The notes under the pieces were generated by a model that ran no database searches, was not told the DNA's origin, and saw nothing but the letters and a program-made list of their open reading frames with translations. The translations under genes and the position numbers were made by a program. Shown in pieces: positions 4,696 to 47,008 of a stretch of 47,008 nt of DNA; positions within the stretch are counted from its first letter, which is position 1, and each line of letters starts with the position of its first letter. The stretch is from Thermoplasmata archaeon (GTDB lineage: Archaea > Thermoplasmatota > Thermoplasmata > Thermoplasmatales > GCA-001856825), in NCBI GenBank assembly GCA_021797915.1, contig JAJZYT010000012.1, positions 1 to 47,008 of the forward strand, written 5' to 3'.

Positions 4696-4724
4696 AATGT
4701 GCTATAGAGAATCTATACTATAAT

Positions 4725-6645: not shown

Positions 6646-6650
6646 TTAAT

Positions 6651-7261: not shown

Positions 7262-7278
7262 CTTTCTTGGTGATCTCC

Positions 7279-7461: not shown

Positions 7462-7507
7462 GCCTCAAGAACACTGCATTTTTGAGCCTGTGACTTTTGT
7501 GCTTACT

Positions 7508-7525
7508 TTCTTTTTTCTCTTTTTG
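7508..7525 (+). terminator. T-rich terminator after the zinc-ribbon gene
   Basis: TTCTTTTTTCTCTTTTTG is a two-block T-run about 50 bases after the stop, the usual archaeal termination signal. No stem is seen. Confidence 0.5.
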
Positions 7526-7641
7526 AATTGAACGGTGGTAGTCAAATTTGTAAGTTCCCTGAATTTAGGCACTTAGCTACTTTAACTAAATTATTTTGGC
7601 TAAAATCTATAAGCTACCTAAGAGTGCCTTTTTGAAGAAGG

Positions 7642-9054: not shown

Positions 9055-9091
9055 CCATGAGAGACAGCTTTGAGAGTAGTTTTCTTAGATC

Positions 9092-9721: not shown

Positions 9722-9773
9722 ATATGACTGTCGATTCTAAAAAGATTTAACCCTGGGTTCTTTAAACCAGTCA

Positions 9774-10335: not shown

Positions 10336-10390
10336 ACTTTAGTCCTGATGCGATTCTCCTTTCATCTTGGGGATCTCTTTCACAACGTCG

Positions 10391-10756: not shown

Positions 10757-10846
10757 GGTTCTCAATCATTCTCACTATCATATGCATTGTCATGGGTCTA
10801 AACCGATGCCATGATTGCTGCTTTAAACATGGACCAATTTACCTGG

Positions 10847-11175
10847 TTATTTCGAGGCAATTACGCTTATTTCTACCATAATCTCGCTGTTTGCGAACTC
10901 GTCACCACCGCTGTCCTCGCCTGAGGATTTGAAGCGAAGTGCTTAGAGTAGAGCTCGTTCATTTTCGGGAAATCTCCCGCTTTCGGTAGATAGACTGAGA
11001 TCTTGACAACATCCTCCATTGTATACCCACCAGAATCCAGGGTTTTCTTCACTTTAGCTATCGCATTTTGAACTGTTCTTATCTGCCCAGACAGGTAGGT
11101 AAAATTTCCAGCCACAACCTCGTGGGAATAGGGGCCGGCTTTTGGGATATCCGGTACCGTGATTACTTTACCCGT
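10847..11175 (-). pseudogene. ridA: RidA/YjgF (imine deaminase) relic with three lesions
   Basis: The family sequence is clear (KVITVPDIPKAGPYSHEV, YLSGQI, VVKISVYLPKAGDFPKMNELY, PQARTAVVTS) but damaged. The codon where ATG would be expected is ACG (about 11173-11175). About 17-20 residues are missing between SGQI and RTVQNAI. A one-base deletion near 10905 throws off the C-terminus, whose proper end, EIMVEISVIASK, is readable in the next frame to a stop at 10847. Intact RidA hydrolyses reactive enamine/imine intermediates. Several independent lesions argue for a real pseudogene. Confidence 0.78.
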
Positions 11176-11245
11176 GGGCTGAAATCCAGACTTGGAATCT
11201 AAAACGCTAGTGTGACGTCTCCTCTGTCCAGAACCTTGATGTTGG

Positions 11246-11911
11246 TTATTTGAGTGAGTTCCTTGCATCTATGAATTTCTTCACGTGCTCAGGTGTCTTG
11301 GGATTTGACGCAAATTCCGGGTGCAAGAACCTTGTTACCAGAGGAATTACTCCCGACCATACCTCCGGATTCGTTCTAACTTCTGAAGTGCCTCCCTTTC
11401 TCTCCTTGACAGAAAATTTATCCAACTTTACCCTGAAAACTGAAACTCCCTTCAATTCGTCATGATTGGGAAGCTCAGCGTTCTCCTTTCTTCCGGGAAC
11501 AAGTCGATCTATCCATTCGCTCACAAAAGATAGCTTCTCTTCCTCGGTCATAAGTTCTTCAGGCCTTCCAAAAATAACGACAGACCTGTAATTCATTGAG
11601 TTGGAAGCTATCCCTTTCGCAAGCACCAATCCCTTCAACTCCAAGATTGAGATTGCTATTGGATTCCCCGCTCTGAAAGTGCCTATTATCCTTGCGACAG
11701 GACTGCCGTGAAGGTAAATGTAATTTGAATCGTTATAGTACATCATAGGTATTACGAAGGGCTGTCCATCCACCTGGAATGCAACATGACAAGCAAACCC
11801 ATTTTTGAGAATATCAAGAAGTAGCTCCTTATCATAACTCGCCCTTTGTGGGTACCTTTTCACCTTAGTCAGGACATCAGCTGCCACTTGTTCTCGCCTC
11901 CTTATCCCCAT
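11246..11911 (-). CDS. Pyridoxamine-5'-phosphate oxidase-like flavin split-barrel protein (NimA-type)
   Basis: A 221-residue protein. The stretch from ILKNGFACHVAFQVDGQPFVIPMMYYNDSNYIYLHGS is typical of the FMN-binding split barrel of NimA/Pyridox_ox_2 proteins, followed by SMNYRSVVIFGRPEEL. Members bind FMN or heme and reduce small molecules, and some give nitroimidazole resistance. The C-terminal 60 residues, ending PEHVKKFIDARNSLK, are also common in the family. The ridA relic lies immediately downstream. A second split-barrel domain occurs in the UbiA fusion at 26282. Confidence 0.75.
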   Translation of the reverse strand: MGIRRREQVAADVLTKVKRYPQRASYDKELLLDILKNGFACHVAFQVDGQPFVIPMMYYNDSNYIYLHGSPVARIIGTFRAGNPIAISILELKGLVLAKGIASNSMNYRSVVIFGRPEELMTEEEKLSFVSEWIDRLVPGRKENAELPNHDELKGVSVFRVKLDKFSVKERKGGTSEVRTNPEVWSGVIPLVTRFLHPEFASNPKTPEHVKKFIDARNSLK

Positions 11912-12301
11912 TGGACTCTTTGAACAAAGAAAACACCTCAGTCATTGTTATGTTTTTGCTCATGCAATTAGAACCAGAAATGAAATAAATACCTTTAGAG
12001 TTGTAGAAGGTCTTCCGGGGAGTTGTAGTCTATGGTTTCTGGAAAAACACACAAGAATAACTAATCCCAAACAACAGGCCAAGACAAAGCCTTCTGGTTG
12101 CAACTAATGTTTTTATTATTACGATGCCGGTTCCTTCGGATACCGAGGGTCATACTGATTTTTGATACTATCAACTCTCGGTCCTCGACCTTTCTTCCAC
12201 CATCTTATCCAAGGAAGGATTTACTCTGTGATGATTTAGTGACTAACAAAGCTTAGAATAGAGTTTGACTAGAAATATGGATATAAAAATAATAAACAAG
12301 T
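11912..12301. other. Non-coding stretch before the integrase remnant
   Basis: No convincing gene is seen on either strand. There is a loose inverted repeat (ACCGAG near 12138 and CTCGGT near 12177). The rest is AT-rich and stop-dense, consistent with decayed DNA left by an excised or eroded element. Confidence 0.4.
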
Positions 12302-12400
12302 CTTGGCATCCTCATGGTGCAAATCCATCTCGGCCATCGTTCCCTGAGTGCTACTCAGAGGTACACTCACGTTTCACAGCAGGGGTGGCGGAGCAAGTCA
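12302..12400 (+). pseudogene. Tyrosine recombinase (integrase) C-terminal remnant
   Basis: One frame reads LGILMVQIHLGHRSLSATQRYTHVS. The part LGHRSLSATQRYTHVS is the hallmark of the tyrosine recombinase C-terminus: the second active-site histidine region and the nucleophile tyrosine. The frame hits a stop immediately upstream (taa at 12293), and the earlier catalytic Arg region is absent. It lies about 80 bases from the tRNA-Pro gene, the usual integration target, so it is probably what is left of an integrated element. Confidence 0.65.
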
Positions 12401-12480
12401 GGAAGAGGCTTGGGTTTTTTTCGAGGCGAAAAAGAAATGATGGAAATGGATGAAATGAACGAATTTGGTCATGAACTGAG

Positions 12481-12553
12481 TGGGGCTGCCCGGATTTGGA
12501 CCGGGGTCACAGACTCCCAAAGCCCGTAGGATGCCAAGCTACCCCACAGCCCC
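12481..12553 (-). tRNA. tRNA-Pro (anticodon UGG)
   Basis: The reverse strand folds as a 73-base tRNA: acceptor GGGGCTG/CAGCCCC, anticodon arm CGGGC with loop TTTGGGA, T arm CCCGG with loop TCCAAAT, and discriminator A. No CCA is encoded. A TATA-like stretch GGTAATTAAACC lies about 22-33 bases upstream on the same strand (12575-12586). Confidence 0.93.
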
Positions 12554-12588
12554 TTCCGACCACATTTTTACTCGGTTTAATTACCTTT

Positions 12589-13161
12589 TCATTCGGTTAA
12601 CTCTCTAAGATCATAGACTAAAATTTCAATAATAGAGTCAATGACTGCCCCAAGATCCCCGGTCGCATCAATCTCAACACCAGACTGGAACTCGGTTGAT
12701 TTTTTGTAGACCAATCTGACTGCTCTTTCTCCGAACACCACGTTCCTATGGGCATCTCTTTGTATGCAGACCTCAAGAGGAACCCTCAGAGTGAAGACAA
12801 AAGGCTTAAAGAAACTTAGACGTTTGATCAAGTCGCTTACCTGAGACTTGTAATAAAAATTGCCGTCGAAAATGACCGGATTCCCTCTTACTAACTGTTT
12901 TATTGCTTCATTGGCTGCTCGTTCATTTGCTTTGATGAAACTTCTAAGCGTAATGTAAGTTTTCCCCCACTCTTCAAGGTTGTTTTTTTCCAAGATCTCA
13001 TCGATCGAAACGTATGCGGCTCCCAAAACTTCTGCGAGTTTCAAGGAGACTGATGTTTTGCCTCCCCCCAGTGGACCCCTGATGATGACAAAGAATTCTT
13101 GCAATTCTCTTTCAGCTCCTGGCTCAGACCGTGTCTCAATTTCAAAATAATCCAAAGCCAT
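12589..13161 (-). CDS. P-loop nucleotide kinase-like protein
   Basis: A 190-residue protein. Walker A GPLGGGKTS lies at about 30-38. A shikimate/adenylate-kinase-like acid pair follows in AAYVSIDEIL, then VIFDGNFYYK and a lid-like basic stretch. It probably transfers phosphate to a small molecule or tRNA-like target, but the acceptor cannot be identified. Its ATG is only 33 bases from the divergent MBF1 start, so both leaderless promoters must be interlocked there. Confidence 0.65.
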   Translation of the reverse strand: MALDYFEIETRSEPGAERELQEFFVIIRGPLGGGKTSVSLKLAEVLGAAYVSIDEILEKNNLEEWGKTYITLRSFIKANERAANEAIKQLVRGNPVIFDGNFYYKSQVSDLIKRLSFFKPFVFTLRVPLEVCIQRDAHRNVVFGERAVRLVYKKSTEFQSGVEIDATGDLGAVIDSIIEILVYDLRELTE

Positions 13162-13194
13162 TAAAATTATCTACTCATTATTTCTTCTAAGATC

Positions 13195-13629
13195 ATGAAC
13201 TGCGAATTGTGCGGAAAGGTGATGGATCGCTACCACGAGGTTATCATTGACGGTGTGAAAATGAGAGTCTGTCAAGACTGTGCTAAATATGGAAAGGAAG
13301 TTACCAAGAAGCCAGCAGCAGTCCAGAGGGAACCGATTCCACAGAATACTGTTCAGAGGAACAACTTCATTCACGTCCCCCCTCCTCCACCCAGAAGGAA
13401 GACGCCTGGAACCGTGGAAGATACTGATGAACCTATCATAGACTTCGGGCATATGATAAAGAAGAGAAGGGAGGAGATGGGTCTATCACAGGAACAACTT
13501 GCAAACAAACTCCAGGAAAAGAAGAACTTGATCGCAAAGATAGAAAGGGAGGAGATCAAGCCGGACAAACACACGGCTAGGAAAATAGAAAAGCTCATGG
13601 GAGTCAGAATATTGGAAAAAATACAGTGA
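13195..13629 (+). CDS. mbf1: Archaeal multiprotein bridging factor aMBF1
   Basis: A 144-residue protein with an N-terminal zinc ribbon (C3, C6, C26, C29), a flexible Pro-rich linker (VPPPPPRRK near 63-70) and a C-terminal Cro-type helix-turn-helix (GLSQEQLANKLQEKKNLIAKIE). This is the full aMBF1 domain order. The family is linked to transcription and to ribosome binding in archaea. A leaderless start at ATG 13195 fits AAAATTATC at about 13165-13173. Confidence 0.93.
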   Translation: MNCELCGKVMDRYHEVIIDGVKMRVCQDCAKYGKEVTKKPAAVQREPIPQNTVQRNNFIHVPPPPPRRKTPGTVEDTDEPIIDFGHMIKKRREEMGLSQEQLANKLQEKKNLIAKIEREEIKPDKHTARKIEKLMGVRILEKIQ

Positions 13630-13657
13630 TTTTTTGAGTCGCTAGTCGTCCCTCATT

Positions 13658-15130
13658 CTATTTCTTGCCCGACGAATCCTCGTCGAGAGGAATTGACTTC
13701 ATCGGAGGGAACAGTATGACCTCCTTGATTGAAGTCTGGTTAGTGAATACCATTGCGGGTCTGTCGATAGATATTCCTATTCCCGCAGTGGGAGGCATTC
13801 CATATTCGATGGCGCTGAGGAATTCTTCGTCAAATGGAGGCGCTTCATCGTCTCCCTTCTTTCGCTCCCTCTCCTGTTCCTCAAACATCTTTCTCTGGTA
13901 GAGAGGATCTGTGAGCTCTGAATAAGAATTTGCGACTTCCATTCTTGCAACATACAGCTCGAATCTTTCAGCCAGCATTGAGTTCCCTCTCTTGGCCTTT
14001 GTGAGGGGACACATGTACGTTGGAAAATCCAGGACGAAGGTTGGTTGCAGCGTTTTGCCTTTCAGGTACTTGTCGAAGAGGGAGTCTGCAACGTGGTATC
14101 GATCTGGATGTTTCAGTCCAAGTTTTTCTGCTTCATTGATCCTCTTTAGATCTTCATCAGATATTGATGAGACGTCAATCCCGGATATATTCTTCAACTC
14201 GTCGACCCAGTACATCCTTGCAAAAGGAGGAGTGAAGTCGATCGTCTCCCCCTGATAATCTATCTTCAAGTTTCCAAATGTCTTCAAGACGAACGAGCTT
14301 AACATGTCCTCCATCATCTTCATGAATGTTTCATAGTCGCTGTAGGCCTCGTAGTATTCTATCTGCGTGAACTCAGGGTTATGAACGGAATCTGCGTCCT
14401 CGTTCCTGAAATCTTTGGAGACCTCGTACACTCTCTCCGCTCCCCCTATGATCAGCCTCTTCAGATAGAGCTCATCAGATATCCTCAGGAACATCTGTTT
14501 GTCATCGAGGGTGTGATACGTTGTAGTGAACGGTTTGGCACTCGCGCCTCCATAGAGGTCCTGCAATATAGGCGTCTCAACTTCGATACCTCCCCTCGAA
14601 TCGAGGATATCTCGAACGTGACGCATGAATTTTGCTCTTATTTCGAAGGTCCTGAGAACTTCCTGGTTCATCATGAGGTCAACGTGCCTCGATCTGTACC
14701 TCGCTTCCGTATCGGTCAGACCCTGCCACTTGTTTGGAAGCGTTCTCAGAGTCTTGGAGAGCATTGTTAGTTCCCTCGCACCGACACTCATTTCCCCCCT
14801 CTTGCTCTTCATCACTATCCCCCTTACTCCAAGGGTATCGCCGATAGATGCGTTCGCTAACACGATAAGGGACTTCTGATCCAGATCGTTGTTTCTGATC
14901 AAACTCTGGATTTTGCCCGATCTGTCCTGAACATCTATGAATGTTATTCCCCCCATCTGCCTCAGCTGCATTGCCCTTCCAGCGATGCTCACTTCTTTCC
15001 CTTCAAATTCGGAAAAATTATCTTTGATCTCCTTTGCGTGAGTCGTGACGTGGTATGAATACGGATATGGCTCTATTCCTGCCTTCCTAAGTGCTTCAAT
15101 GCTCTCCAGCTTTGCATTATCTATTGCCAT
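13658..15130 (-). CDS. lysS: Lysyl-tRNA synthetase, class II
   Basis: A 490-residue enzyme charging tRNA-Lys with lysine. The N-terminal OB anticodon-binding domain is visible (VSIAGRAMQLRQMGGITFIDVQDRSGKIQ). The catalytic class II core follows with motif 2 (VYEVSKDFRNEDAD then HNPEFTQIEYYEAYSDY) and motif 3 (GMPPTAGIGISIDRPAMVFT, ending VILFP). The length is normal. Many archaea use the unrelated class I LysRS, so the class II type is informative about lineage. It converges with aMBF1, with 28 bases between stops. Confidence 0.96.
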   Translation of the reverse strand: MAIDNAKLESIEALRKAGIEPYPYSYHVTTHAKEIKDNFSEFEGKEVSIAGRAMQLRQMGGITFIDVQDRSGKIQSLIRNNDLDQKSLIVLANASIGDTLGVRGIVMKSKRGEMSVGARELTMLSKTLRTLPNKWQGLTDTEARYRSRHVDLMMNQEVLRTFEIRAKFMRHVRDILDSRGGIEVETPILQDLYGGASAKPFTTTYHTLDDKQMFLRISDELYLKRLIIGGAERVYEVSKDFRNEDADSVHNPEFTQIEYYEAYSDYETFMKMMEDMLSSFVLKTFGNLKIDYQGETIDFTPPFARMYWVDELKNISGIDVSSISDEDLKRINEAEKLGLKHPDRYHVADSLFDKYLKGKTLQPTFVLDFPTYMCPLTKAKRGNSMLAERFELYVARMEVANSYSELTDPLYQRKMFEEQERERKKGDDEAPPFDEEFLSAIEYGMPPTAGIGISIDRPAMVFTNQTSIKEVILFPPMKSIPLDEDSSGKK

Positions 15131-36693: not shown

Positions 36694-36866
36694 CCCAACT
36701 TATACTAGTTCTAGTTCTTGAATGCATGGAAACGGCAATTTTCCTCCACATTATGGCCTAGATTCCTTAATTATTGGAGTGAAACCTCAATTTTTTTGGC
36801 ACCGCGAAATCAAAACTATGTAGTAATGCGCAAGAAGTTAAATTCAGAAGAAACATTTGCCCCAAT

Positions 36867-36951
36867 GCGGGGGTTGCCGAGCCAGGTTAAAGGTACCAGA
36901 CTTAAGATCTGGTTCCGTAGGGATTCGGGGGTTCAAATCCCCTCCCCCGCA
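36867..36951 (+). tRNA. tRNA-Leu (anticodon UAA)
   Basis: An 85-base tRNA with the long variable arm of class II tRNAs: acceptor GCGGGGG/CCCCCGC, anticodon stem CCAGA/TCTGG with loop CTTAAGA, T arm GGGGG-TTCAAAT-CCCCT, discriminator A. TATA-like AAGTTAAATT lies about 30 bases upstream. The accessory gene cluster begins right after it. Confidence 0.94.
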
Positions 36952-37145
36952 TCTACATTTGTAATCAAATCAGTCAATTCAAGCATCTAATTTAGAAATA
37001 AGAACAACTTCATTTGACTGAAGACATTCCTTCATTATTCAATGTAAATATTGGAAATTGGAATGTTAAATTAACAATGCACCTTGTTTGCAAATTCAAT
37101 GGTATTTCCCTGTCAGCAGGAGATTTGCTGTCTAGGGTAATGCGT

Positions 37146-38297
37146 TTATTGGTTCATAAAGGCAAACATTGGCACGTCGAAATATTTCAGTAGAAACCCC
37201 TCTGGAATTATTACATTTGAAATATCTATATTCATAATAGCTGAGGCAAGAATATATCTTGCTAAATCATAGACAATTAATTTGCCTCTTTCCTTGCCTT
37301 CAGATTTTATGACTACTTCAGCGTGATCGAATGAGTTGTCCAATCCACCACGAGCAGCAAAGTCATCTAGAACCCGCTTCGCGGAGTCCGGAAAAGAAAG
37401 CAAAATTTGAACAAGGTACTCAGAATATTTGGCTTTTTCTTTGATTTTGCTCTCAATGCCACCGTAAAGACTGAAAGGTATCAAGAAAGGAAAAAACAGA
37501 CCTGCCAATCTTTGGTCAAGCCTCTGTATGGATTCCTTCAGTTTTCCTGGTTCTTCTTCATCGCTATCTCCTTGCCTACTTTTCTCGTTGAAAAGATTAA
37601 CCAAGTTGTTAAAAACATTGTGCGTTTCCCACAATTCCATATACCTTTGGACCGTCAACGAATACGGATTCAATTCAAGCTTTTCAATCATGGATTCCAC
37701 ATATTTCAGTTGACTACGAAGCAGTTCTTCTTTAGCGGAGGAAAATTCAGGGCCTTCAATTGACCCATTCTGCCCATTCTCCGCGACATATTTCCGAGAA
37801 GAAGCTGCCTTTTGCCCAGCTAAGATCAGGTCATCATCCGCCCTGGCAGCCTTATCCTGAACTTCCTTTGGAACTGCTGTATCGACGCCTTCCTGCCAAA
37901 TAAATTTTGAAGGCGTAGACCCCAACTTTTCTTGGAGTGACGTCGATAGTTCTTGACAGCCTCTGTAATAGGCGTCAGTCCGCATATACTCTTTCAATTT
38001 CTTTGTGAGTTCCGTTTTTGCATACTTCGTTAGATCGAATATCTTGGAAGAGATTAACGCAAATTTTAGGGAGTCTTCTACTGGAAGCTCATAAAAGACC
38101 TTCTTAGTATTGGGAACACCACGGAGGTGTCCACTACGTATGCCTTTTATCAACCCCTCTTTTTCTAGGGATTGAAGTATTGCATGAACCGGTCTCTTGT
38201 GCATGTTCACTTCCTTTGCGATCTCAGACCACGTGTTTATCCCCATTGCTATTGACATCAGGATTAGCGCTTCGTTTCGTGCTCTATCCTTCCTCAT
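37146..38297 (-). CDS. Winged-helix regulator of the accessory element
   Basis: A 383-residue protein. Residues 1-60 are a winged helix-turn-helix (INTWSEIAKEVNMHKRPVHAILQSLEKEGLIKG). The rest is long, helical and charged, of unrecognised family, with an acidic linker (QGDSDEEEPG) around 247-256. It is transcribed divergently from the HerA-like operon across an AT-rich 190-base region, the usual arrangement of an element's own regulator. The target is inferred. Confidence 0.65.
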   Translation of the reverse strand: MRKDRARNEALILMSIAMGINTWSEIAKEVNMHKRPVHAILQSLEKEGLIKGIRSGHLRGVPNTKKVFYELPVEDSLKFALISSKIFDLTKYAKTELTKKLKEYMRTDAYYRGCQELSTSLQEKLGSTPSKFIWQEGVDTAVPKEVQDKAARADDDLILAGQKAASSRKYVAENGQNGSIEGPEFSSAKEELLRSQLKYVESMIEKLELNPYSLTVQRYMELWETHNVFNNLVNLFNEKSRQGDSDEEEPGKLKESIQRLDQRLAGLFFPFLIPFSLYGGIESKIKEKAKYSEYLVQILLSFPDSAKRVLDDFAARGGLDNSFDHAEVVIKSEGKERGKLIVYDLARYILASAIMNIDISNVIIPEGFLLKYFDVPMFAFMNQ

Positions 38298-38454
38298 TTA
38301 CATGCGCCGTGGATTGATATTTGTTTAAACTACTTGAATCTTATTAAAAAATAATTATTAACTGATGCTAATTAATATAAAATAAAGCTTTAGAGAACAT
38401 ATTAAAGGCTAATATTCATTATACGCCCCGTCGATAATGATGCTGAAACAAAAT

Positions 38455-38465
38455 GTAATAATATC
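38455..38465 (+). promoter_or_regulatory. TATA box of the HerA-like operon
   Basis: GTAATAATATC lies 24-34 bases ahead of the ATG at 38489, so the operon may start with a leaderless gene. An alternative AT run (38412-38424) would give a longer leader. Confidence 0.5.
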
Positions 38466-38488
38466 TGATTGCGGAATGAGCACTGATT

Positions 38489-38653
38489 ATGAACATTAGA
38501 ATTAGCTTTAGGTTCATGAAACAACACTCGAATGAATTCACGGAACCCGTTGCAACCTTGATCCAACAAGAGCCTGACGAAATGGATTTAGAGACATTTC
38601 TAGCAGATATAGCAATACTTGAAAAACTTCTGAAAATAAAAAAGGAGAAGTGA
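38489..38653 (+). CDS. 54-residue protein, first gene of the HerA-like operon
   Basis: The frame starts MNIRISFRFMKQHSNEF and ends LEKLLKIKKEK, 54 residues, with an acidic middle (EPDEMDLETFLADIAILEK). It is probably a helical small protein. The next gene's ATG (38658) is 5 bases after its stop, which supports translation. No known family is recognised. Its small size makes the call moderate. Confidence 0.5.
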   Translation: MNIRISFRFMKQHSNEFTEPVATLIQQEPDEMDLETFLADIAILEKLLKIKKEK

Positions 38654-38657
38654 TGAT

Positions 38658-38798
38658 ATGCACGAGAAATTTCCCGATACGTACAAATTCTCCAAATTTG
38701 GTGCTCCACTTTTGAATAAACTATTGAGAGAATGGAACAAGGGTCACGGCTATGAACCCAAGAACCTTGCTGAGTTAATTCAGGGGGTGCTAGAGTAA
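38658..38798 (+). CDS. 46-residue protein, second gene of the HerA-like operon
   Basis: It starts MHEKFPDTYKFSKFGAPLLN and ends NLAELIQGVLE, 46 residues. The ribosome-binding stretch GAGAAGTGAT overlaps the upstream stop. The next gene begins at the base immediately after its TAA. The sharing of ends and starts across six genes argues that this is real. Function unknown. Confidence 0.5.
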   Translation: MHEKFPDTYKFSKFGAPLLNKLLREWNKGHGYEPKNLAELIQGVLE

Positions 38799-39236
38799 TT
38801 GCGAAAAACTCTTATTTGCATGCTTATAGCGAGCAGTGTTGGAGCATTCATTACTGCAGGCGTTGACTTCATTTCATCAATGAGTTTCTTTTTCACTAAA
38901 ACACCGCCAATCGTGCAGTTTTTCAATCATACATTGTTCATCTTCAAGGTCGAAAGTATCAGCTGGTTGCCCAAAATTCTTGGGATAGGTAAAAGCGGCC
39001 AGCAATCACTCGTGATCGTATCCTTTGGCCAAATGTTTACGCTGATTTTCCTCATCATGTTTCTCATTTCTGTGATCTGGAGCATTAGGAATGCCGGTAA
39101 GCTCAGTTACCAAGAAACTTTGCGGGTCAGAAATAAAGCTAGAAATAAAGAAAATTCACAAGACGCGTCGAACACACGTACTATTTCAAATGTTAGGAAA
39201 CAACCCATAGATTCAACTGAAAGGAGGTCGAGATGA
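38799..39236 (+). CDS. Two-span membrane protein of the operon
   Basis: A 145-residue protein starting at TTG directly after the preceding stop. It has two hydrophobic segments (LICMLIASSVGAFITAGVDF and VIVSFGQMFTLIFLIMFLISVIW) and a basic, disordered tail. It could anchor the element's ATPase complex to the membrane. Not recognised as a known family. Confidence 0.65.
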   Translation: MRKTLICMLIASSVGAFITAGVDFISSMSFFFTKTPPIVQFFNHTLFIFKVESISWLPKILGIGKSGQQSLVIVSFGQMFTLIFLIMFLISVIWSIRNAGKLSYQETLRVRNKARNKENSQDASNTRTISNVRKQPIDSTERRSR

Positions 39237-39237
39237 T

Positions 39238-39804
39238 ATGATTTACACGATGGCAGTGGCCAATCTCGACGGCCATTATATCGAAGATATAAAAATTGAA
39301 GATAGCGACCCATCCCTGCTATGGAAAGGTGCAAGTATTAGAGACGAGAAGTTCTTTACGGGAAGGGATAAGAGTACCGGAGAAATCGTTAGATTTCCCC
39401 CTGGGAAAGTAACCACAAAACAGTGGGAAGATGGAACTATTAATGTGGGCGATACCGTAAGGGTCGCGTTTAAGGTCTCCAGTAAAGGCTACCCGTATGC
39501 CTATTTCGTGCTTATCAAATCGAAAAAACAAATCGAAGAAGAGAGCCGGGAGTCAGAAAGAATTCGCAAACTAGAGGAAGAAGAGAGAAGACGGAAAAAA
39601 GAAGAAGCAGAAAGAAAGCTCAGAGATCAAAGAGAAGGAAAGCAAAAATATCCTAACTTGAATAGGAGAATGCAAGACATTACAAGAAAGCTCCGAGAGT
39701 CGCATCCGGACGTTATTGGTAGCAGCCCTGAACATGAGAAAAAGTATCGAGAACTTATAGATGAATATAAGAAAATTAAGGCTAGGTTAAGAGAGGTGAT
39801 GTGA
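39238..39804 (+). CDS. Soluble protein with a beta-rich head and coiled-coil tail
   Basis: A 188-residue protein. The first 95 residues are beta-rich and OB-like (IEDSDPSLLWKGASIRDEKFF, GDTVRVAFKVSSKGYPYAYFVL). About 96-185 is a highly charged coiled coil (RKLEEEERRRKKEEAERKL). A strong GGAGGT (39223-39228) precedes the ATG at 39238, which lies 1 base after the previous stop. Possibly a DNA- or membrane-associated scaffold; function unknown. Confidence 0.65.
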   Translation: MIYTMAVANLDGHYIEDIKIEDSDPSLLWKGASIRDEKFFTGRDKSTGEIVRFPPGKVTTKQWEDGTINVGDTVRVAFKVSSKGYPYAYFVLIKSKKQIEEESRESERIRKLEEEERRRKKEEAERKLRDQREGKQKYPNLNRRMQDITRKLRESHPDVIGSSPEHEKKYRELIDEYKKIKARLREVM

Positions 39805-40119
39805 ATGAGTGATGAATTTGGAATAGTGCCATATGAGAAGCGGGTAAACGCAATGAAGGATGTGGAAAGAGAGATAGAAACGAAGCTGAAGCATTATCCG
39901 GAACAGATCGTAAGACAAATCGGAAATGAGTTCGTAGAATTGGTGGAAAGGAGCAGATTCCTAGACGTAGAAGGAGGAATGACGGTGCGAGAGTTCCTGG
40001 ACTACGTACTGAAGAAGTATGGGCCGGAACTGGGATACGCATGGATCCTCTATGAGATGAAATCCTGGTATGAATTCCAGTCATTCTTCAAACCCGACAA
40101 GAAAGAGGGAGAGGTGTGA
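39805..40119 (+). CDS. 104-residue helical protein of the operon
   Basis: It starts at ATG directly after the preceding stop, behind GAGGTGATG, and is helical throughout (MKDVEREIETKLKHYPEQIVRQIGNE, REFLDYVLKKYG). Its stop overlaps the GTG of the ATPase gene by 4 bases. No family is recognised. Tight coupling suggests it acts with the ATPase. Confidence 0.6.
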   Translation: MSDEFGIVPYEKRVNAMKDVEREIETKLKHYPEQIVRQIGNEFVELVERSRFLDVEGGMTVREFLDYVLKKYGPELGYAWILYEMKSWYEFQSFFKPDKKEGEV

Positions 40120-42047
40120 CGGAATATCAACTTCTGAAGCATGAAATGCTGAACGTGACGTTACTGTCCATAGTTGGTTTGGTTGCAGGAACCATTCTGG
40201 GACTCGGTGTTGGGTCCGCTTTAGGCGAGTCGTCATTCAGTGAAGTGATGAAGTATGCAACATTTCTTGCCTTCTGGATCGGTATAACCCTTGCCACTGC
40301 TGCACACGAGATAAACAGGTCAAGAGGATACAAACTTAAGGATGACCTGGCAGTGGTCGGTGTAGTGAGAAAGGTGTATCAGCCCATCAGGACCAGTCGT
40401 GGAGAACACGTTCGTTACGAAATAGCAAGAGAACAGGTATATCCCTTTTCAGCTCACTTGGCCTCCTATATGGAAGGGAAGGAGCACAACTTCAACATTG
40501 CCATTGCTGGACAGTCAGGAAGCGGGAAGAGTATTCTAACATACTGGCTAATCCGTAAGATGCCCTTCAAGCACATCATCTTCAGTTACAAGAATTCAGA
40601 TATGTACGTACAGCTGGGTTTTCCCGTATTATATATCAGAAATTTTAGCCCCAACGTATTTCTTGACAAGGAAAGCTTCGTGCAGGCATGGGTTACAGCA
40701 TTTGTCCCAAGTTCTCAAGGGATAACAGCGTCTGCCATAGAACCTCTTGTTAGAAGCATCGTCTCAAAGTGCAGCAACTGGCAGGAGTTCTCAGATGAGG
40801 TGGAGAGGAGACTCAGGAGGGCGGGAGACAACTATGTTACGAGTGGAGCACTCGCCGACATACAGAGCAAATTGGAGAGCGTATACAATGAGAAGATGTA
40901 TTCCCTGGATTTGCCTGACGAAATCACAATAGATTTCTCTGGCCTGAACGAGAACGCATTCACCTTCAATGCGGAGTATCTGCTGAGAAGCATTTACCGG
41001 CAGATAAAGGATGGCTCCAGGACCGGGACGATGATCTTTTGTGACGAAGCTGAACGGTTCCTCAGAGCAAAGAACACAATCTTACGGGAGATGAGTAGCA
41101 TGATAAGGTCCAGAGGGGCTTTCCTTCTTTCAACTCAAAGACTTTCTGATCTGCAGGGGATAGTGGGCAATGCGGCTTCACAGTTCGTGTTCAGGCAGAC
41201 GGAATCGGAGGACCTGCAGAGGATAAGGTCGTTATCTGAGGAGTTCAGGTGGACAGTCCAGAGATTGCATGCATATGAGTTCGTTGATCTTGCACAACAC
41301 GAGAGTCATCTGGGAATCTACATCTTCAAACTGATTGCTCCCAATCTCGAATTTTCAGAAATCAGAGAATGGAAGCCTGACAGATATTCTGACAATACGA
41401 ATGATGTGTTTTCCAGGAAAACTCAGGCGGGACCCGACAGCACTATCCTTGAACTCGAGAAGGAAGTATTTGAACAACTCGCACAACCAAGAAATGCCCA
41501 GGAGATCGCCAAAAGAATAGCAGAAAAAACAGGGGAGGATGTCAACACAGTGAGATTCCGGATAACTGCCACGAACGGGGCCATCGATAGACTGATGAGA
41601 CAGGGGAAGATATCTTCCCTTAAGCTGGATTTCGTGAAATTCGTAAACAACAGAACGTACTTCGCCGACACAGAAGCGACATACTACTTCAGAACAGGCA
41701 CATATGATTTCCATGATTTCGTCGTCTCGATGGTTGCTTCCATTCTCACACATAGAGGAATAGATTGCAGGGTGATGCACCATGGGGAAAGCGTCCCAGA
41801 TATCATTGCAGGGAAGATGGCAATAGAGGTAGAAACGACAGACAAAAGGGGAGAAAATTTTGAAAAAGTGAGAAGGAGAATAGAACGGGAGAAGCAGGAT
41901 GGTTATACCGTCATGGTGATAGTTTCTAGCCAAGACCTCAAAAGTAAATATCAGGGAATAGACGGAGTTTCTATCTTTACTCCGAGAGAGTTATGGCAGA
42001 CAGACTTATCAGATAAGAAGGACAGTTCAACAGATCGGGAAGGTTAA
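40116..42047 (+). CDS. HerA/TraD-like ATPase with membrane anchor, winged helix and nuclease-like domain
   Basis: A 643-residue protein starting at GTG. Order: two membrane segments (about 14-35 and 45-62); P-loop ATPase with Walker A GQSGSGKS (132-139), Walker B MIFCDEAERF (306-315) and sensor STQRLSDL (339-346); winged-helix-like region (about 443-515); and a PD-(D/E)XK-like domain (about 530-605; PD 561-562, E571-x-E573). HerA/FtsK/TraD ATPases pump DNA. The extra nuclease-like domain and its position at the end of a phage- or plasmid-like operon suggest DNA transfer, processing or defence. Confidence 0.82.
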   Translation: MTEYQLLKHEMLNVTLLSIVGLVAGTILGLGVGSALGESSFSEVMKYATFLAFWIGITLATAAHEINRSRGYKLKDDLAVVGVVRKVYQPIRTSRGEHVRYEIAREQVYPFSAHLASYMEGKEHNFNIAIAGQSGSGKSILTYWLIRKMPFKHIIFSYKNSDMYVQLGFPVLYIRNFSPNVFLDKESFVQAWVTAFVPSSQGITASAIEPLVRSIVSKCSNWQEFSDEVERRLRRAGDNYVTSGALADIQSKLESVYNEKMYSLDLPDEITIDFSGLNENAFTFNAEYLLRSIYRQIKDGSRTGTMIFCDEAERFLRAKNTILREMSSMIRSRGAFLLSTQRLSDLQGIVGNAASQFVFRQTESEDLQRIRSLSEEFRWTVQRLHAYEFVDLAQHESHLGIYIFKLIAPNLEFSEIREWKPDRYSDNTNDVFSRKTQAGPDSTILELEKEVFEQLAQPRNAQEIAKRIAEKTGEDVNTVRFRITATNGAIDRLMRQGKISSLKLDFVKFVNNRTYFADTEATYYFRTGTYDFHDFVVSMVASILTHRGIDCRVMHHGESVPDIIAGKMAIEVETTDKRGENFEKVRRRIEREKQDGYTVMVIVSSQDLKSKYQGIDGVSIFTPRELWQTDLSDKKDSSTDREG

Positions 42048-42384
42048 AACGTCTTCTTTCTGGTTTAAGATTGGTCACTGCCGGGGATCTGTATGCACTC
42101 TTTGATTTTTTTATTGTCTCTATTTTATAGTAAATTGACCTTTCCAAGAGACCTACTCCGTGTTACTAGTATAGTGGTTAGAAACAATGGGAGAAACCGA
42201 GGCAGACAAGCATGTTAATGGTTCATGTGTTGACAGATTTATATTGTTAGGTCTGCTCTTCTGTAGTCTAATTGCTTTCCCCCCCGGCTCTCGTTATGGA
42301 GCTCACCCTTTGCACTTCCTTTCCCTAAAGGTTCTAACCAGCCTCCGGATTGCACCAAACGGGAGAGGGGGGACAGACGCAACT
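42048..42384. other. Gene-free stretch with G/C-rich inverted repeats
   Basis: After the ATPase stop the sequence is AT-rich, then carries the arms GCTTTCCCC (about 42274-42282) and GGGGAAAGC (about 42387-42395), and a loosely complementary pair around 42283-42296 and 42357-42376. TAGTATAGTGGTTAG near 42166 resembles a tRNA D-arm but has no other arms. The stretch may be the right boundary of the accessory element. Confidence 0.35.
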
Positions 42385-42573
42385 ATGGGGAAAGCTACCA
42401 AAGGACCCAAACTTACCATCTAATCCATAGACAGGAATCTCAGGATAACAAGGAAGAGGTCAAGGGGAGAGAGACCATATTCCGTCATGAAGAGAACTTT
42501 CCATGGAGAGCACACTTTCGTCACAACTGTTCCGAGGGTGAGGGTCAAGGCAATGTGCAAGAAATTGAGGTAA
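42385..42573 (+). pseudogene. IS5-family transposase C-terminal remnant
   Basis: The frame reads MGKATKGPKLTI, a stop, SIDRNLRITRKRSRGERPY and VTTVPRVRVKAM with a terminal stop at 42571. GERPYSVMKR carries the last acidic residue of the DDE set of IS5-like transposases. An in-frame TAA at 42421 and the lack of the N-terminal two thirds mark it as a dead fragment. Confidence 0.65.
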
Positions 42574-42696
42574 ATACAGTGCAATAACAGTATTTCTTGT
42601 AACCTCAATCAGACTGAGATGCATCTTGTAGAAAATTTATTTGGTTGAAACTCAGAAAAGCCATAAAGAACATAAAAAATCCAGCCACCCAGATGA
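42574..42696. other. Short gene-free stretch
   Basis: It lies between the transposase relic and the MBL-hydrolase stop. No signal was recognised. Confidence 0.3.
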
Positions 42697-43413
42697 TCAA
42701 ATGTCAATCTCTCGAAATGGGAATATAATCCTTGGGTTTTTCTTCCCTTGTTCCCAAACCTGCTGTAGTGATTCTGAAGTGAAATGAACGGGAACAACCT
42801 TTTTGCAATTACTTTCTTCTGCCACTTTCATCACAGAGGAATATGTGGAATGCTTCCAGAAATTTGCCAATTCCCTATTACTGTCTGCATAGGTCATCTC
42901 GTGTATGAGATATTCTACTCCTGATGCTGCTCTGACTACGCTTTCAGAATAAGACGTGTCCCCGCTATAGACTAATGAGCCGTCCCGATGATCAATCAAA
43001 TAAACGTTATCAGTGATTATGTGATCTCCATTAGAGGAACTTATGAAATCGAGTCTATTCCCTTCCACGAAATTCACGTTTACTGCGGATATGTAGGTAG
43101 ACGGTGTGTTCAATAGGTCAAGCATTTTTTCAGTAGCTTCCTTTATTCCCTTCGGACCCATGATCGTCATCTCATTTTTCACCTTTTCCTCCGCCCTGTA
43201 CCACAGCAGTTCTGGGAGGCCTGAGAAGTGGTCAAGATGCATATGAGATATAAGGACAATCTCTATTTTCCTTGGGTCTATGTGGTTCTCAAATAATGAG
43301 TCCATCGTGTGAGGTCCGAATTCGATCACAATTTTGTCATCTATGGAGATTGAAACATTCCTCTGAAAGTCGATCAGATGAGAGGACCAGATGCCAAGGA
43401 ATTTTATTTTCAT
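42697..43413 (-). CDS. Metallo-beta-lactamase-fold hydrolase (RNase Z-like)
   Basis: A protein of about 238 residues with zinc-binding SHMHLDHFSG (HxHxDH) and later histidines in SGDTSYSESV, LIHEMTY and VPVHFT. The domain order is that of RNase Z/ElaC-type MBL hydrolases, but the exosite arm is not evident, so it could be another MBL phosphodiesterase. I chose ATG 43413, preceded by GAGGAA. A 20-residue upstream extension is rejected. Confidence 0.82.
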   Translation of the reverse strand: MKIKFLGIWSSHLIDFQRNVSISIDDKIVIEFGPHTMDSLFENHIDPRKIEIVLISHMHLDHFSGLPELLWYRAEEKVKNEMTIMGPKGIKEATEKMLDLLNTPSTYISAVNVNFVEGNRLDFISSSNGDHIITDNVYLIDHRDGSLVYSGDTSYSESVVRAASGVEYLIHEMTYADSNRELANFWKHSTYSSVMKVAEESNCKKVVPVHFTSESLQQVWEQGKKNPRIIFPFREIDI

Positions 43414-43423
43414 TTCCTCATCC

Positions 43424-44797
43424 CTATTTTTCTGTGAGCTCCTCGAGGCTCTTGTTTTTAGTTTCGGGTGCAAGAAATATTGTCAGCATCATCCCGATGA
43501 GCCCAGCTATTGCGAAGAACAAAAGGCCGTAACCCAATCCATAAAGCGTAACAATAGTCGGAAAAGTGGTGAGGCCCAGTATCGCTCCTATCCTGCTGAT
43601 TGATGTTCCCCATCCCTGTCCAGTGGCACGTATAGACGTTGGGAAGAGTTCCTGACCGTATACGAAGTCCGTGCTTCCCATGCCCCATGACTGAGTGAGT
43701 TCGAACAGTATGTACATCGACGCTATCAAGACACCCGTGATACCAACTGCAAATGCATCCTTGGGCGTCCTTGCTGCGATAAATGCTAATATAAGCAGCG
43801 ATATGAACATGCCTGAGAAACCTAGAACTGTAACGGGCTTTCTGCCCCACCTGTCGACTGTTAAAATGCACATAACTGACCCGATTATAGCGATTGACGA
43901 AAAGACTGCAGATCCCAGGATTGAAAGGCTGTGGGTCAAACCTAGCAGCGCAAGTATTGTTGGCGTAAATATGCCTATTCCGTAGAATGCAACGTCGTAG
44001 AAGAACCATGCTGTGCCGAAATATACAGTGTTCTTGATGTACCTTTTACTGAATAATGTCAGAAACGAAACCTTCTGCTTAGAAGACCCAAGGTCATCTG
44101 ACTTTCCAACCACCAGCTTCTCTATTTCTTTGGCTTTTGATGCATTCCCTTGATTTGCAAGCCACCTGGCCGATTCAGGTACCTTTCTCCTCAACACAAG
44201 CACGACAACTGCCGGGATTATGCCTATAGCAAACATCCATCGCCACGAATTTACCCCAAATGGGAGAAGCAAATAACCGACGGTGTATGCAAAAGCAGCG
44301 CCGACCCATCAAGACAGTCCATCGCTTGCAAGGAACTTGCCTCTAGATTTCTTCGGAGAAAATTCAGAAATTATCGTTGCGCCTATCGCATAATCAGCAC
44401 CTATCGCAAGACCTAGAATCAACCTAAAAATGAAGAGGGACCAAAAGTTGAAAGATACTGTTATCAGTGCCGTGAAGATGATGAATATTACCATATCCCA
44501 CATGTACATGAACTTCCTGCCTCTCAGGTCAGTCACATAACCTATGGAAAGCGCACCGAATAGCATCCCTATGACTGTGGAAGCCGCCATCAAACCCTTT
44601 CCCAGCGGAGTCGATGCATAACTGAATGCTGAAATCGCCGTTATGATTGTGAGTGCAACACCGATTATTGAAATATCATATCCATCTAGAAAAGTTCCCG
44701 CAACAGAAAGAGCTGTTATTCGAAAGTGTGTCCTGTTTGGTGGAGCATCATCCAGAGTGCCAAAAACAGAGCTTCCTTTCATCTCACTACTGCTCAT
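43424..44797 (-). pseudogene. MFS transporter interrupted by one in-frame TGA
   Basis: A single reading frame from 44797 to 43424 encodes about 457 codons of an MFS transporter (GTFLDGYDISIIG in helix 1; YVTDLRGRKFMY in loop 2-3; GWGTSISRIGAI near the end). At 44309-44311 the frame has TGA where ASDGLS and WVGAAFAYTVGY would join; a Trp codon TGG is the likely ancestor. Both sides remain intact, so it is a recent nonsense mutation, a sequencing error, or readthrough. It may have been a metabolite:H+ symporter. Confidence 0.75.
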
Positions 44798-45050
44798 AAT
44801 TGCGCCATCATCAGGGGAACATAGTCTTGATGCATATATTGTCTATACATGTTATGACAAACATTCCGCTACGTATCCATGCATAGAATAATGGCAATGC
44901 GCTGATATAATCTCTTCCACTCTTAATTCGGGTAATTGAAATGTATGAGGAATATTATTATGAATTGAACAAAAAGAAGGGAACGCACAGTGGAATCAAA
45001 GATACAGAATGACATGGACCCCTCAAACCTATCTTCGCCCTTTTGTACTA
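44798..45050. other. Non-coding region
   Basis: No gene or clear signal. It holds the upstream region of the MFS gene (minus strand) and the end of the IS ruin. Confidence 0.35.
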
Positions 45051-45535
45051 CTACAATCCAATCTTGAGCTTTTCTATCAACTCTCCCTGCTCCTTGGTGT
45101 ATTCCACATGTGCATGCGATCCATTCGCGTAAACAACTTCCCTGATGCCTGATATAGTCTTCAGCGCCTGATTGTATGTGATGGTGCACTTGGCTGCCAT
45201 GATTGCTATCATCGTATACCCAAGTATTGTGAGGAACAATCTCGCTCTGGTACTGTATGTAGTTGCGAGAGTTCTCAATGTCCCTTGATCTGTGGATCAG
45301 TTCATTCATGGACGGAGAGCGAAGAAGGGAGAGCCCCAATGACACTGTAGCCCTTCAGGTCATTGAGATTATCTACGCTGTAGAACCCTCGGTCGATGAC
45401 TATGAGTATCGTGAGTATGCCATAGTCCTTCAGTTCGCCGGAGAATGTATGAATGGTGGATACTGATGTATGGAACCCTCAATTATAGCCTAGTGTGCTG
45501 GGTACCACATGTTTCAAGAATCCTTAGGGAATGCT
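45051..45535 (-). pseudogene. IS1634/IS4-like transposase ruin
   Basis: Pieces in different frames of the minus strand together resemble a DDE transposase: HTFSGELKDYGILTILIVIDRGFYSVDNLNDLKGY (a catalytic Asp in DRGFYS), then RDIENSRNYIQYQSE, then TISGIREVVYANGSHAHVEYTKEQGELIEKLK with a stop at 45051. At least two frame changes and early stops mark it as dead. The N-terminal part is not seen. Confidence 0.65.
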
Positions 45536-45586
45536 ATCGCTGATTTTTCGAAGTGCACAAACATCCCTTGAAAATTCGACCGATGG
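45536..45586. other. Short stretch upstream of a TATA-like site
   Basis: No gene is seen; it leads into TTTAAATA at about 45587. Confidence 0.3.
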
Positions 45587-45740
45587 TTTAAATACCACTA
45601 CCAGATGGATAATAGGTCGTCGCCTGGCGGCGGGGAAAAGCATCTGGATCGTGTTAACAAACCTCAGGGCACATGTAGAGCCCGGGTTTGAGAGAACAGG
45701 GGACGGGGGGTGGCGATGGCCGGATTCCCCCGTCCATCCA
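45587..45740 (+). other. TATA-led GC-rich structured region, possible ncRNA
   Basis: TTTAAATA (about 45587-45594) is followed by a GC-rich stretch with CGCCTGGCGGCG and a stem GACGGGGG/CCCCCGTC (about 45705-45712 and 45727-45734). No recognised RNA family. A long frame across it (45531-45791) has no protein-like features. Confidence 0.3.
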
Positions 45741-45946
45741 TTCCATTTTCTGAACTATGATTCTGTGGGCAGTTGTGGAAATAGGAAGTAAAAGAAATAA
45801 GATAGGAGTGATCACCTTGACGGAGACAGGCAATTCGCTCTGGAAAGGGTCAGGGAGACCCAAACCCTGAAGAAGATGCGATGTCTCTTATTGATCGGAG
45901 CATTCCGGGGAGAGAATAAGTTTTCTTGCCAAATTCCTCAGGAAGG
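45741..45946. other. Non-coding remnant stretch
   Basis: A GGAGTGAT ribosome-binding site is followed by a 17-codon frame (about 45817-45870) that ends at once. This looks like the truncated start of a lost gene. Nothing else is recognisable. Confidence 0.3.
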
Positions 45947-46019
45947 TGCCCCTGGACAGATTCACCTTGTAGTCTCTGGGTTCAAAGCCCAGTATGCTTA
46001 TCCGCTACACCACGGAAGT
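45947..46019 (-). pseudogene. Degenerate tRNA-Gln-like sequence (UUG)
   Basis: On the reverse strand a 73-base span aligns without gaps to tRNA-Gln. It has a D arm like GTGTAGCGGATAAGCAT and a perfect anticodon stem CTGGG/CCCAG with loop CTTTGAA. The acceptor stem (ACTTCCG/CAGGGGC) has two mismatches and two G-U pairs, and the 5' T-stem (TACAA) does not pair with CTGTC. Decay is by substitutions, not by indels. Confidence 0.55.
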
Positions 46020-46021
46020 AA

Positions 46022-46094
46022 TGGCACCGGGATGATTCGAACGTCCGTTTACGCTCTCAGAGAGCGTCGTTCTTCACTCCTACACTACGGTGCT
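46022..46094 (-). pseudogene. Degenerate tRNA-Gln-like sequence (CUG)
   Basis: On the reverse strand a 73-base span has acceptor AGCACCG/CGGTGCC (one mismatch), a perfect anticodon stem ACGCT/AGCGT with loop CTCTGAG, and T arm GGACG-TTCGAAT-CATCC (one mismatch). The D stem does not pair and the GG of the D loop is shifted. The anticodon would read CAG (Gln). It lies 2 bases from the neighbouring tRNA-like sequence. Confidence 0.55.
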
Positions 46095-46162
46095 GTCTCT
46101 TGATTCGGTCCTGAGATTCAATAGTCCGGCGTTGACAAGAAGTACTATATTCCAAGAGCGAG

Positions 46163-46519
46163 ATGATATGTATGATGGACGATAATGGATTGAAGACAAT
46201 CAGTAGGGAGGCAAGGGATGAATACATAAGACTGGCACTGGCAGTTACAAAGACCGCCAGGGAACTGAAGAAACCACTGTCTGAATTGGACGTTGATGTA
46301 CTGGGCGCTCATCTGGAAGAGATGAAGGAGGCTGCTGCATTCATTGACAGTCTTCCAAGGAAGACCATAGCTGATGTTGTTGAAGAGGAAAGATCACCTG
46401 AGGGTGAGATGACACGGGAAGAGTTGAACGGAATGGTCGTGACTATAATACAGAACGTGGTGGTCCAGGTGGGGTTCCTGATCCACAACCTGCTCATAGG
46501 TGATCTTGAAGACCTTTAA
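46163..46519 (+). CDS. Small helical hypothetical protein
   Basis: A frame of up to 118 residues, acidic and helical (KTARELKKPLSELDVDVLGAHLEEMKEAAAFID, REELNGMVVTIIQNVVVQVGFLIHNLL). The start is uncertain: ATG 46163, or 46172/46175. The C-terminus has a hydrophobic stretch that may be a membrane or dimer helix. No family is recognised; located among decayed DNA. Confidence 0.5.
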   Translation: MICMMDDNGLKTISREARDEYIRLALAVTKTARELKKPLSELDVDVLGAHLEEMKEAAAFIDSLPRKTIADVVEEERSPEGEMTREELNGMVVTIIQNVVVQVGFLIHNLLIGDLEDL

Positions 46520-46639
46520 AATCTCGGACTGAGGCTTGAGTAGAGATTACGGTGGAAGGATGGGAGAGCATGGAGGTTGAAGGGGAGTGAATGAGCAACA
46601 GGGGCTTCCCTCCGGCCAGACCTCTTGTATATCACCGTT
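46520..46639. other. Short non-coding stretch
   Basis: No signal beyond GC-rich sequence leading into a foldable region. Confidence 0.3.
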
Positions 46640-46714
46640 GGATGGTCCACTGGCGAAGTCACTTCGCCTGGCGCTGGCGGTTGCTGCAGAGCCAGCAATG
46701 TCTGGTGGACATCC
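46640..46714 (+). other. Potential three-way-junction RNA fold
   Basis: Three stems nest without conflict: GGATGGTCCAC (46640-46650) with GTGGACATCC (46705-46714, one bulge); GGCGAA with TTCGCC (46652-46657, 46663-46668) around a 5-base loop; and TTGCTG with CAGCAA (46681-46686, 46693-46698). No known RNA family is recognised. It could also be subterminal structure of a mobile element. Confidence 0.35.
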
Positions 46715-46853
46715 GACGTTTGGGAGGGAGGGCACAGTCGCCCCCTTCCAATTTCAGGGCAAACGGAAGAGTGCTGAAGGAGTTGATGCTGGTCGTATAT
46801 TGCTTCTACGGTATTCGTCTCCCGAATGAGTGAAGAGTGCCAGTGGCGATGTC

Positions 46854-47008
46854 TCAAAGATGTTTCATCATTGTGATCGCCGCGTCCCGATACCCCATCT
46901 TCAGGTACATATTTCTCGCTGTGGAGTTGAACCCGAAGACGTTGAGCTGGATCCTCCCTGCTCCTTCTTTCCTGGCGGTTCTCTCGAGCTCCCTCATAGC
47001 CTCATTTC
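46854..47008 (-). CDS. GNAT-family acetyltransferase, C-terminal part (partial at window edge)
   Basis: On the reverse strand an open frame from the window edge to a TGA at 46854 reads ARKEGAGRIQLNVFGFNSTA then RNMYLKMGYRD. The pattern L-x-V-x-x-x-N-x-x-A-x-x-x-Y-x-x-x-G-Y is the acetyl-CoA-binding end of GNAT N-acetyltransferases. Only about 50 residues are in the window, so the substrate cannot be judged. Confidence 0.75.
   Translation of the reverse strand, partial: NEAMRELERTARKEGAGRIQLNVFGFNSTARNMYLKMGYRDAAITMMKHL

Follow-up and report, generated by a model that had tools for sequence, protein, structure and literature searches.

Towards the right-hand end of a 47,008-nucleotide stretch of DNA from a Thermoplasmata archaeon lies a tightly packed operon that closes with the gene for a HerA-like ATPase. 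The stretch, hereafter the window, is contig C26 of G000, a metagenome-assembled genome (MAG) of 1.32 Mb in 29 contigs, and the operon is almost certainly one end of an integrative element of about 49.8 kb that occupies the 3' end of a tRNA-Leu(UAA) gene. On balance we take the operon to be the conserved DNA-motor module of this Thermoplasmatales element, a DNA-transfer pump in the manner of TdtA; the transfer step itself, taken separately, could go either way.

The element in tRNA-Leu(UAA)

The left end of the element is marked in the window by the following features:

36866–36953, plus strand: tRNA-Leu(UAA), the integration target (ARAGORN and Rfam)
36940–36952, plus strand: attL core, CCCTCCCCCGCAT, corresponding to the final 13 bp of the matched tRNA
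36953–47008: left ~10 kb of the element, within a region (36826–47008) 99.3% identical to contig C10 of a second MAG, G004

Siblings of the same genus retain the tRNA gene and, to its left, the genes for an acyl-CoA dehydrogenase and a cupredoxin-like protein. The two closest, G010 and G008, follow the window at 96% identity as far as exactly 36952 and diverge sharply from it at 36952/36953. At all seven sibling tRNA-Leu sites examined the element is without a counterpart—no HerA operon, no such integrase—and what follows the tRNA varies from one sibling to the next. A conserved right-hand gene (about 202 aa, MEEFEIVEHVPDK) lies about 0.06 kb past the tRNA in G005 (about 63 bp), about 1 kb past it on contig C7 of G004, 2.7–5 kb in G003, G010, G008 and G009, and about 12 kb in G001. 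The G001 site may once have held a related element, since about 60 bp resembling the left end of ours are retained there.

From 36940 the window carries the left 10 kb, and the element continues beyond the contig end at 47008. Its right end was read from G004:C10 (JAJYUZ010000006.1, FK1.bin53, 50,017 bp), a contig of the second Thermoplasmata MAG that begins 41 bp before the tRNA and matches the window at 99.3% identity over 10.2 kb. This 50-kb contig contains exactly two copies of CCCTCCCCCGCAT, where base composition predicts 0.0005. The second copy is attR (G004:C10:49891–49903, same strand), and beyond it comes a flank that resembles the sequence after tRNA-Leu in the siblings, with 77% identity to G010 and 72% to G008. 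Just inside attR, on the minus strand (G004:C10:48525–49835), is an integrase gene whose product has the R...HxxR..H...Y residues, matches a PHROG integrase at 1.4e-9, and is homologous to the integrases of relative elements.

The sequence-only reading with which this analysis began had proposed an accessory element beside tRNA-Leu, and the occupied and unoccupied sibling sites bear that out; the extent it gave, 4.9 kb (37146–42047), is ruled out, attR being ~49.8 kb from attL. A composite or tandem element was considered and rejected, since the 50 kb contain only the two att copies, and a search of viral contigs for the attP junction (CGGGTACCCTCCCCCGCATCTACATTTG) found none.

Mosaicism inside the element is evident. 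Between the window and G004:C10 there are zero differences in the first 6.2 kb (36826–43000) and about 70 at 43000–47008; because the differences are so unevenly spread the two copies are not simple clones, and the pattern reflects recombination or mixed strains. At G004's own tRNA-Leu site (locus L044 on contig C7, about 2520–14337), an insertion of about 12 kb separates the acyl-CoA dehydrogenase and cupredoxin-like genes to the left of the tRNA.

The ATPase and its operon

Directly after the tRNA gene come a divergent winged-helix gene and six plus-strand genes, the open reading frames (ORFs) of which are packed with junctions of 4, 0, 1, 0 and –4 bp. The layout is just as it was first read:

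37146–38297, minus strand: 383-aa protein, N-terminal winged helix, transcribed away from the operon (Pfam HTH_29, E 2e-5)
38489–38653, plus strand: 54-aa helical protein (hhalign against cluster c6, per-pair E 1e-4)
38658–38798, plus strand: 46-aa protein (hhalign against the small helical/coiled cluster c12, per-pair E 0.001)
38799–39236, plus strand: 145-aa protein, two transmembrane segments plus a charged tail (hydropathy)
39238–39804, plus strand: 188-aa protein with a beta-rich head and a charged coiled coil (by inspection)
39805–40119, plus strand: 104-aa protein, family not recognised
40116–42047, plus strand: 643-aa HerA-like ATPase, comprising a transmembrane anchor, a beta domain, a RecA-like motor, a winged helix and a PD-(D/E)XK-like domain
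41457–42005, plus strand: the C-terminal winged helix (about residues 448–516) and PD-(D/E)XK-like domain (about 521–630) of the ATPase (AlphaFold2)

The 643-aa protein has an N-terminal hydrophobic segment and conserved motor motifs, with GQSGSGKS as Walker A and FCDE as Walker B. Pfam returns P-loop matches for it, all of them sub-threshold, whereas a profile built from 18 relatives picks out, from the PDB, STIV B204, HerA YjgR, VirB4, DptH and HerA proteins of defence systems. As modelled by AlphaFold2 (mean pLDDT 80, pTM 0.56), the protein begins with two N-terminal helices, followed by a beta domain, a RecA-like core and the C-terminal domains, and Foldseek places Sulfolobus HerA (9e-11) and VirB4 (2e-10) at the top of its matches, with TdpA and TrwB lower down. 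Motifs, profile and fold agree that this is a member of the DNA-pumping FtsK-HerA superfamily; hydropathy and the model likewise bear out the membrane anchor and the winged helix that the sequence-only reading had described, and make its nuclease-like domain likely.

The best of the sequence-profile PDB matches is to the packaging ATPase of a virus, STIV B204 (1.6e-8), and there is a match to a PHROG packaging family as well (2e-8). The ATPase might, then, serve to package the genome of a virus, or of a satellite that relies on a helper virus for packaging. B204, HerA and VirB4 belong to one superfamily, however, so that such a match does not discriminate among them. Neither 50,697 phage records nor the IMG/VR scans yielded a relative, and no capsid candidate was recognised. 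On these grounds a viral origin was rejected, and we consider a packaging role very improbable.

When the C-terminal 204 residues are modelled alone (AlphaFold2, pTM 0.84), a winged helix is followed by an alpha-beta-beta-beta-alpha-beta fold. Foldseek likens the model to several PD-(D/E)XK proteins, Hjc, I-Bth0305I, Bax1 and VRR_NUC, and to the winged-helix protein RosR, all weakly (E > 1e-3), and a Pfam search with the nuclease-like domain gave no meaningful match. The motif D...ExET..K is invariant in all 17 sequences compared (D562, E571, E573, T574 and K577 in the window protein); in it the usual catalytic lysine of D...(D/E)xK is replaced by glutamate, as in some ExE enzymes. The domain likely has the PD-(D/E)XK nuclease fold, and it may be an active nuclease. 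Sequence matches to the ACT domain and to SbtB-like proteins were dismissed as chance, the predicted topology not following them. NurA, sought among the operon proteins, was not found; in the NurA-HerA repair pair NurA is encoded by a separate, adjacent gene, whereas here the nuclease-like domain is fused to the motor and is of the PD-(D/E)XK type.

Two of the small proteins match proteins encoded near relatives of the ATPase. The head of the 188-aa protein matches cluster c11, a small protein encoded near those relatives (hhalign per-pair E 1.7e-6 over 60 columns, or about 3e-4 when corrected for ~180 comparisons). The 54-aa protein, at about 0.02 after correction, is likely the counterpart of a ~70-aa protein (c6) encoded beside HerA in relatives. 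The 46-aa protein is possibly related to cluster c12 by a match that is not significant once corrected, and neither it nor the 104-aa protein, the 145-aa protein or the 383-aa protein has significant relatives: a search for relatives of the two-span 145-aa protein found none, convincing relatives of the 104-aa protein were sought in 117 genomes without success, and the 383-aa protein, likely a regulator, has only weak relatives elsewhere, essentially none. Since the ATPase has full-length relatives, and both the 188-aa head and the 54-aa protein match proteins encoded near them, the operon is more than a chance assembly of genes. The variation at tRNA-Leu and the conservation of some of the small genes alongside the ATPase both speak against a refutation of the sequence-only reading.

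A family of ATPase–integrase elements

Relatives of the ATPase are patchily distributed within the order, occurring in 31 of 117 genomes. In the class as a whole, matches at 1e-8 occur in 37 of 400 genomes, and nearly all the long ones fall within the order. Among 25 loci examined—several of them near-identical, and hence not independent—24 have a tyrosine integrase 0.65–5.2 kb from the ATPase, the exception being a contig of just 3.2 kb. In 16 of the integrase-bearing loci the integrase has a tRNA gene (Ala, Val or Cys) directly upstream. When integrated, the window element has the integrase and ATPase genes at opposite ends; in the predicted circular form they would be ~3.2 kb apart across attP. 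An integrase, a HerA-nuclease-like ATPase and small partners thus make up a shared backbone, which comes in two types. In the short type the ATPase, about 593 aa long, has no membrane segment of its own; a membrane protein is encoded just upstream, and ParA, serine recombinase and Cdc6 are neighbours. In the long type the ATPase has membrane segments, and its neighbours resemble the 54-aa and 188-aa proteins of the window. The window ATPase groups with the long type (support 100/100).

These elements move. A long-type element of 12.35 kb, in tRNA-Val(GAC), occurs in G097 and G047 as copies of 99.9% identity and in G065 at 99.4%, the flanks being unrelated; in G104 the element is present with an insertion. 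The isoleucyl-tRNA synthetases of these four genomes are only 50–56% identical, the figure being 50–54% among G097, G047 and G065 and 50% between the two genera whose copies match at 99.9%; comparison of the sequences shows, then, that the element recently crossed genera nearly unchanged. Contamination is unlikely for the G047 and G097 copies, because both assemblies are single contigs. The element encodes the integrase, a winged-helix protein, the ATPase and small proteins, with nitroreductase-like enzymes, a transporter and an acetyltransferase as cargo. Integrase and ATPase are its sole large backbone proteins, and no relaxase, capsid or replication initiator was recognised among its genes.

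Several loci depart from this pattern or survive in part. In L054 (G007:C146, 12383–15110) a relative of the ATPase, broken by a frameshift, precedes two copies of the region that holds the winged helix and the nuclease-like domain, in the company of a different integrase and of secreted or membrane proteins. L057 (G009:C20:12744–13085), a degenerate ATPase C-terminus with two stop codons, is the relic of a lost element. L052 (G001:C5, 20 kb) and L053 (G001:C6, 8.8 kb) share almost the same short-type backbone, ParA, serine recombinase and Cdc6 included; both are short contigs of a six-contig genome and are possible plasmids, and no terminal overlap was found for L053.

Only one plasmid protein matches the window ATPase: ORF1 of pPO1 from Picrophilus oshimae (HXY78_RS00025, 'FtzK-related'), at 29% identity over query residues 125–628 (E 7e-42), the C-terminal region included. 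Like the window element, pPO1 is thermoplasmatal and carries restriction-modification genes; it also has Cdc6 and a serine recombinase. Unlike that element it is a free plasmid, with no tyrosine integrase among its six annotated genes, and its ATPase groups with the short type on a long branch. The protein has been annotated as related to FtsK (PMC3177234).

That a free plasmid of 7.6 kb, maintained at 12–15 copies, should encode an ATPase its authors call FtsK-related, and that the protein accompanies ParA, serine recombinase and Cdc6 both there and in the short-type elements, suggests a different task: the ATPase might be a maintenance motor that, in the manner of FtsK or HerA, segregates, resolves or processes the replicating circle while its nuclease-like domain trims or nicks intermediates, the elements themselves spreading passively. 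The 12.35-kb tRNA-Val elements, however, keep the ATPase with no ParA or Cdc6 recognised, and membrane anchoring, whether in cis or through the neighbouring protein, is unneeded for simple resolution, though FtsK is also anchored. We think maintenance an unlikely answer, if one well worth keeping in mind.

The other genes of the window element are of mixed character. Beyond the operon, the window holds:

42697–43473, minus strand: metallo-beta-lactamase-fold hydrolase, cargo
43424–44797, minus strand: sugar-type transporter of the major facilitator superfamily (MFS), cargo, frameshifted in the window
46022–46094, minus strand: diverged, element-borne tRNA-Gln(CUG)

The rest of the element, on G004:C10, carries a complete type I restriction system and, beside a PstI-like protein, a D12 methylase, as well as an NYN RNase, together with MFS transporters, sugar-acid enzymes and unknown proteins. 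The MFS gene of the window, split into 43424–44272 and 44309–44797, is a single 457-aa frame there (G004:C10:6599–7972). The element's tRNA-Gln(CUG) has an A1-C72 mismatch and shares 48 of 73 bases with the host's own on G000:C14; a stretch 83% identical to it occurs in G007:C74. At about 42402–42646 lies a copy of an interspersed repeat of ~250 bp with many copies in G007 and in others of the genus, which may be the remnant of a transposable element, since elsewhere its halves are 0.1–1.6 kb apart.

An element that carries other defence genes, and a HerA-type motor coupled to a nuclease-like domain, raises the prospect that the operon itself is a weapon of defence or of competition between elements, attacking foreign DNA as HerA-DUF4297 or HerA-SIR2 do, and weak PADLOC matches to mad8 and HerA (2e-6 to 4e-11) can be cited in its favour. 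These matches lie only in the P-loop core, however, and are superfamily-level; the HerA match of the window protein is short (E 0.015), and the operon includes no DUF4297 or SIR2 partner. Nor are defence HerA proteins known to be anchored in membranes. The ATPase, moreover, is tied to the integrase and not to the changing cargo, and it occurs whether or not an element has restriction systems. The first reading had left the choice between transfer and defence undecided, and sequence alone does not settle it; because the ATPase belongs to the integrase-linked backbone and the restriction systems are separate cargo, transfer or maintenance is favoured, and defence seems to us distinctly unlikely.

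A possible role in moving DNA between cells

The closest likeness to a transfer pump is found in a bacterium. In ICETh1 of Thermus thermophilus, an element integrated in a tRNA gene, an integrase, restriction genes and a nuclease accompany HerA-like TdtA, a protein that the donation of DNA requires (PMC5365140). With the window element ICETh1 shares insertion in the 3' end of the tRNA, a tyrosine integrase, a restriction gene and a HerA-like, membrane-bound ATPase, hexameric in the case of TdtA; its nuclease partner, NurA, is a separate gene, and answers to the nuclease-like domain of the window protein. The likeness of the two ATPases is drawn from their descriptions. Among archaea, plasmids of the pT26-2 family integrate into tRNA genes and combine a core of membrane proteins with a HerA/VirB4/B204-like ATPase for which DNA transfer has been proposed (PMC6972569). 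Seven core genes define that family, reported only from Thermococcales and Methanococcales, and the comparison here, too, is by description. In archaeal conjugative plasmids, too, no relaxase can be recognised (PMC6563490, PMC9905601). We bring in these systems as analogies of possible working, not as relatives among which our element is to be classed. TraB of Streptomyces, and VirB4 and TrwB of type IV secretion, are further membrane-anchored motors of the FtsK-HerA superfamily, and the fold of the window ATPase matches those of VirB4 and TrwB; in the window element no relaxase or secretion channel was recognised. The likeness to TraB is drawn in part from the account of ICETh1.

If the operon is a transfer pump, events might run as follows. 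The integrase would excise the element as a circle, making neighbours of its own gene and the HerA operon. The HerA protein would form a membrane-anchored ring, its winged helix would recognise a site on the element, and its PD-(D/E)XK-like domain would nick or trim the DNA so recognised. The motor would then push the element's DNA towards another cell by way of a membrane complex in which the small two-span protein takes part. In this it would work without a relaxase, like TdtA of ICETh1 or TraB of Streptomyces. A bolder version, in which one polypeptide—anchor, HerA motor, winged helix and nuclease—replaces relaxosome, coupling protein and channel, and moves whole elements between genera with the help of a few small partners, is an attractive idea that we would not expect to hold.

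A number of points tell against our account. Cross-genus spread shows that the elements move, not that the ATPase moves them; vesicles, viruses or natural uptake could spread them instead, and the element type with ParA and Cdc6 would also suit plasmid maintenance. Pfam recognised no relaxase, VirB6-like channel, coupling protein or pilin among the ORFs of the 50-kb contig, not all of the small ones having been scanned, which leaves no complete route of transfer in view. The combination by which an integrative and conjugative element is classically defined—a relaxase, and a type IV secretion channel with its coupling protein—is likewise absent from the ORFs scanned. The window contig, lastly, stops before attR, and the right end depends on G004:C10, a contig that is probably misbinned in its MAG. 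Its tRNA and 41-bp left flank match the G000/G010 lineage, whereas a separate tRNA-Leu site of G004's own lies on contig C7; that the contig represents an independent acquisition by a different species is therefore unlikely. The last 3 kb of the contig were looked for in G000, the window's own assembly, and not found.

Islands flanked by tRNA genes have been catalogued in acidophilic archaea, including those at tRNA-Leu(UAA) and tRNA-Val(GAC) of Thermoplasmatales and in C. divulgatum S5 (PMC12302457, PMC5155288); the text of neither paper mentions HerA, and no common island backbone is described in the parts consulted. In literature that leaves out most subscription journals, we found no paper that joins the ATPase, the integrase and the tRNA islands into one family, an absence that, given this coverage, is no proof of novelty. 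The suggestion that the module might be undescribed needs correction as regards the ATPase family, which, through ORF1 of pPO1, is not wholly new.

How DNA passes among acidophilic Thermoplasmatales is a question worth asking, for they have many genes in common and no established conjugation machinery. The present analysis defines a family of integrative elements by its shared backbone, and points to one candidate protein for the movement of DNA: an ATPase that recurs beside the integrase throughout the family and probably helps these elements to move between cells. If it does prove to be a transfer pump, it would represent a relaxase-free, near one-protein route of DNA transfer in archaea, and would offer a starting point for genetics in Thermoplasmatales hosts.

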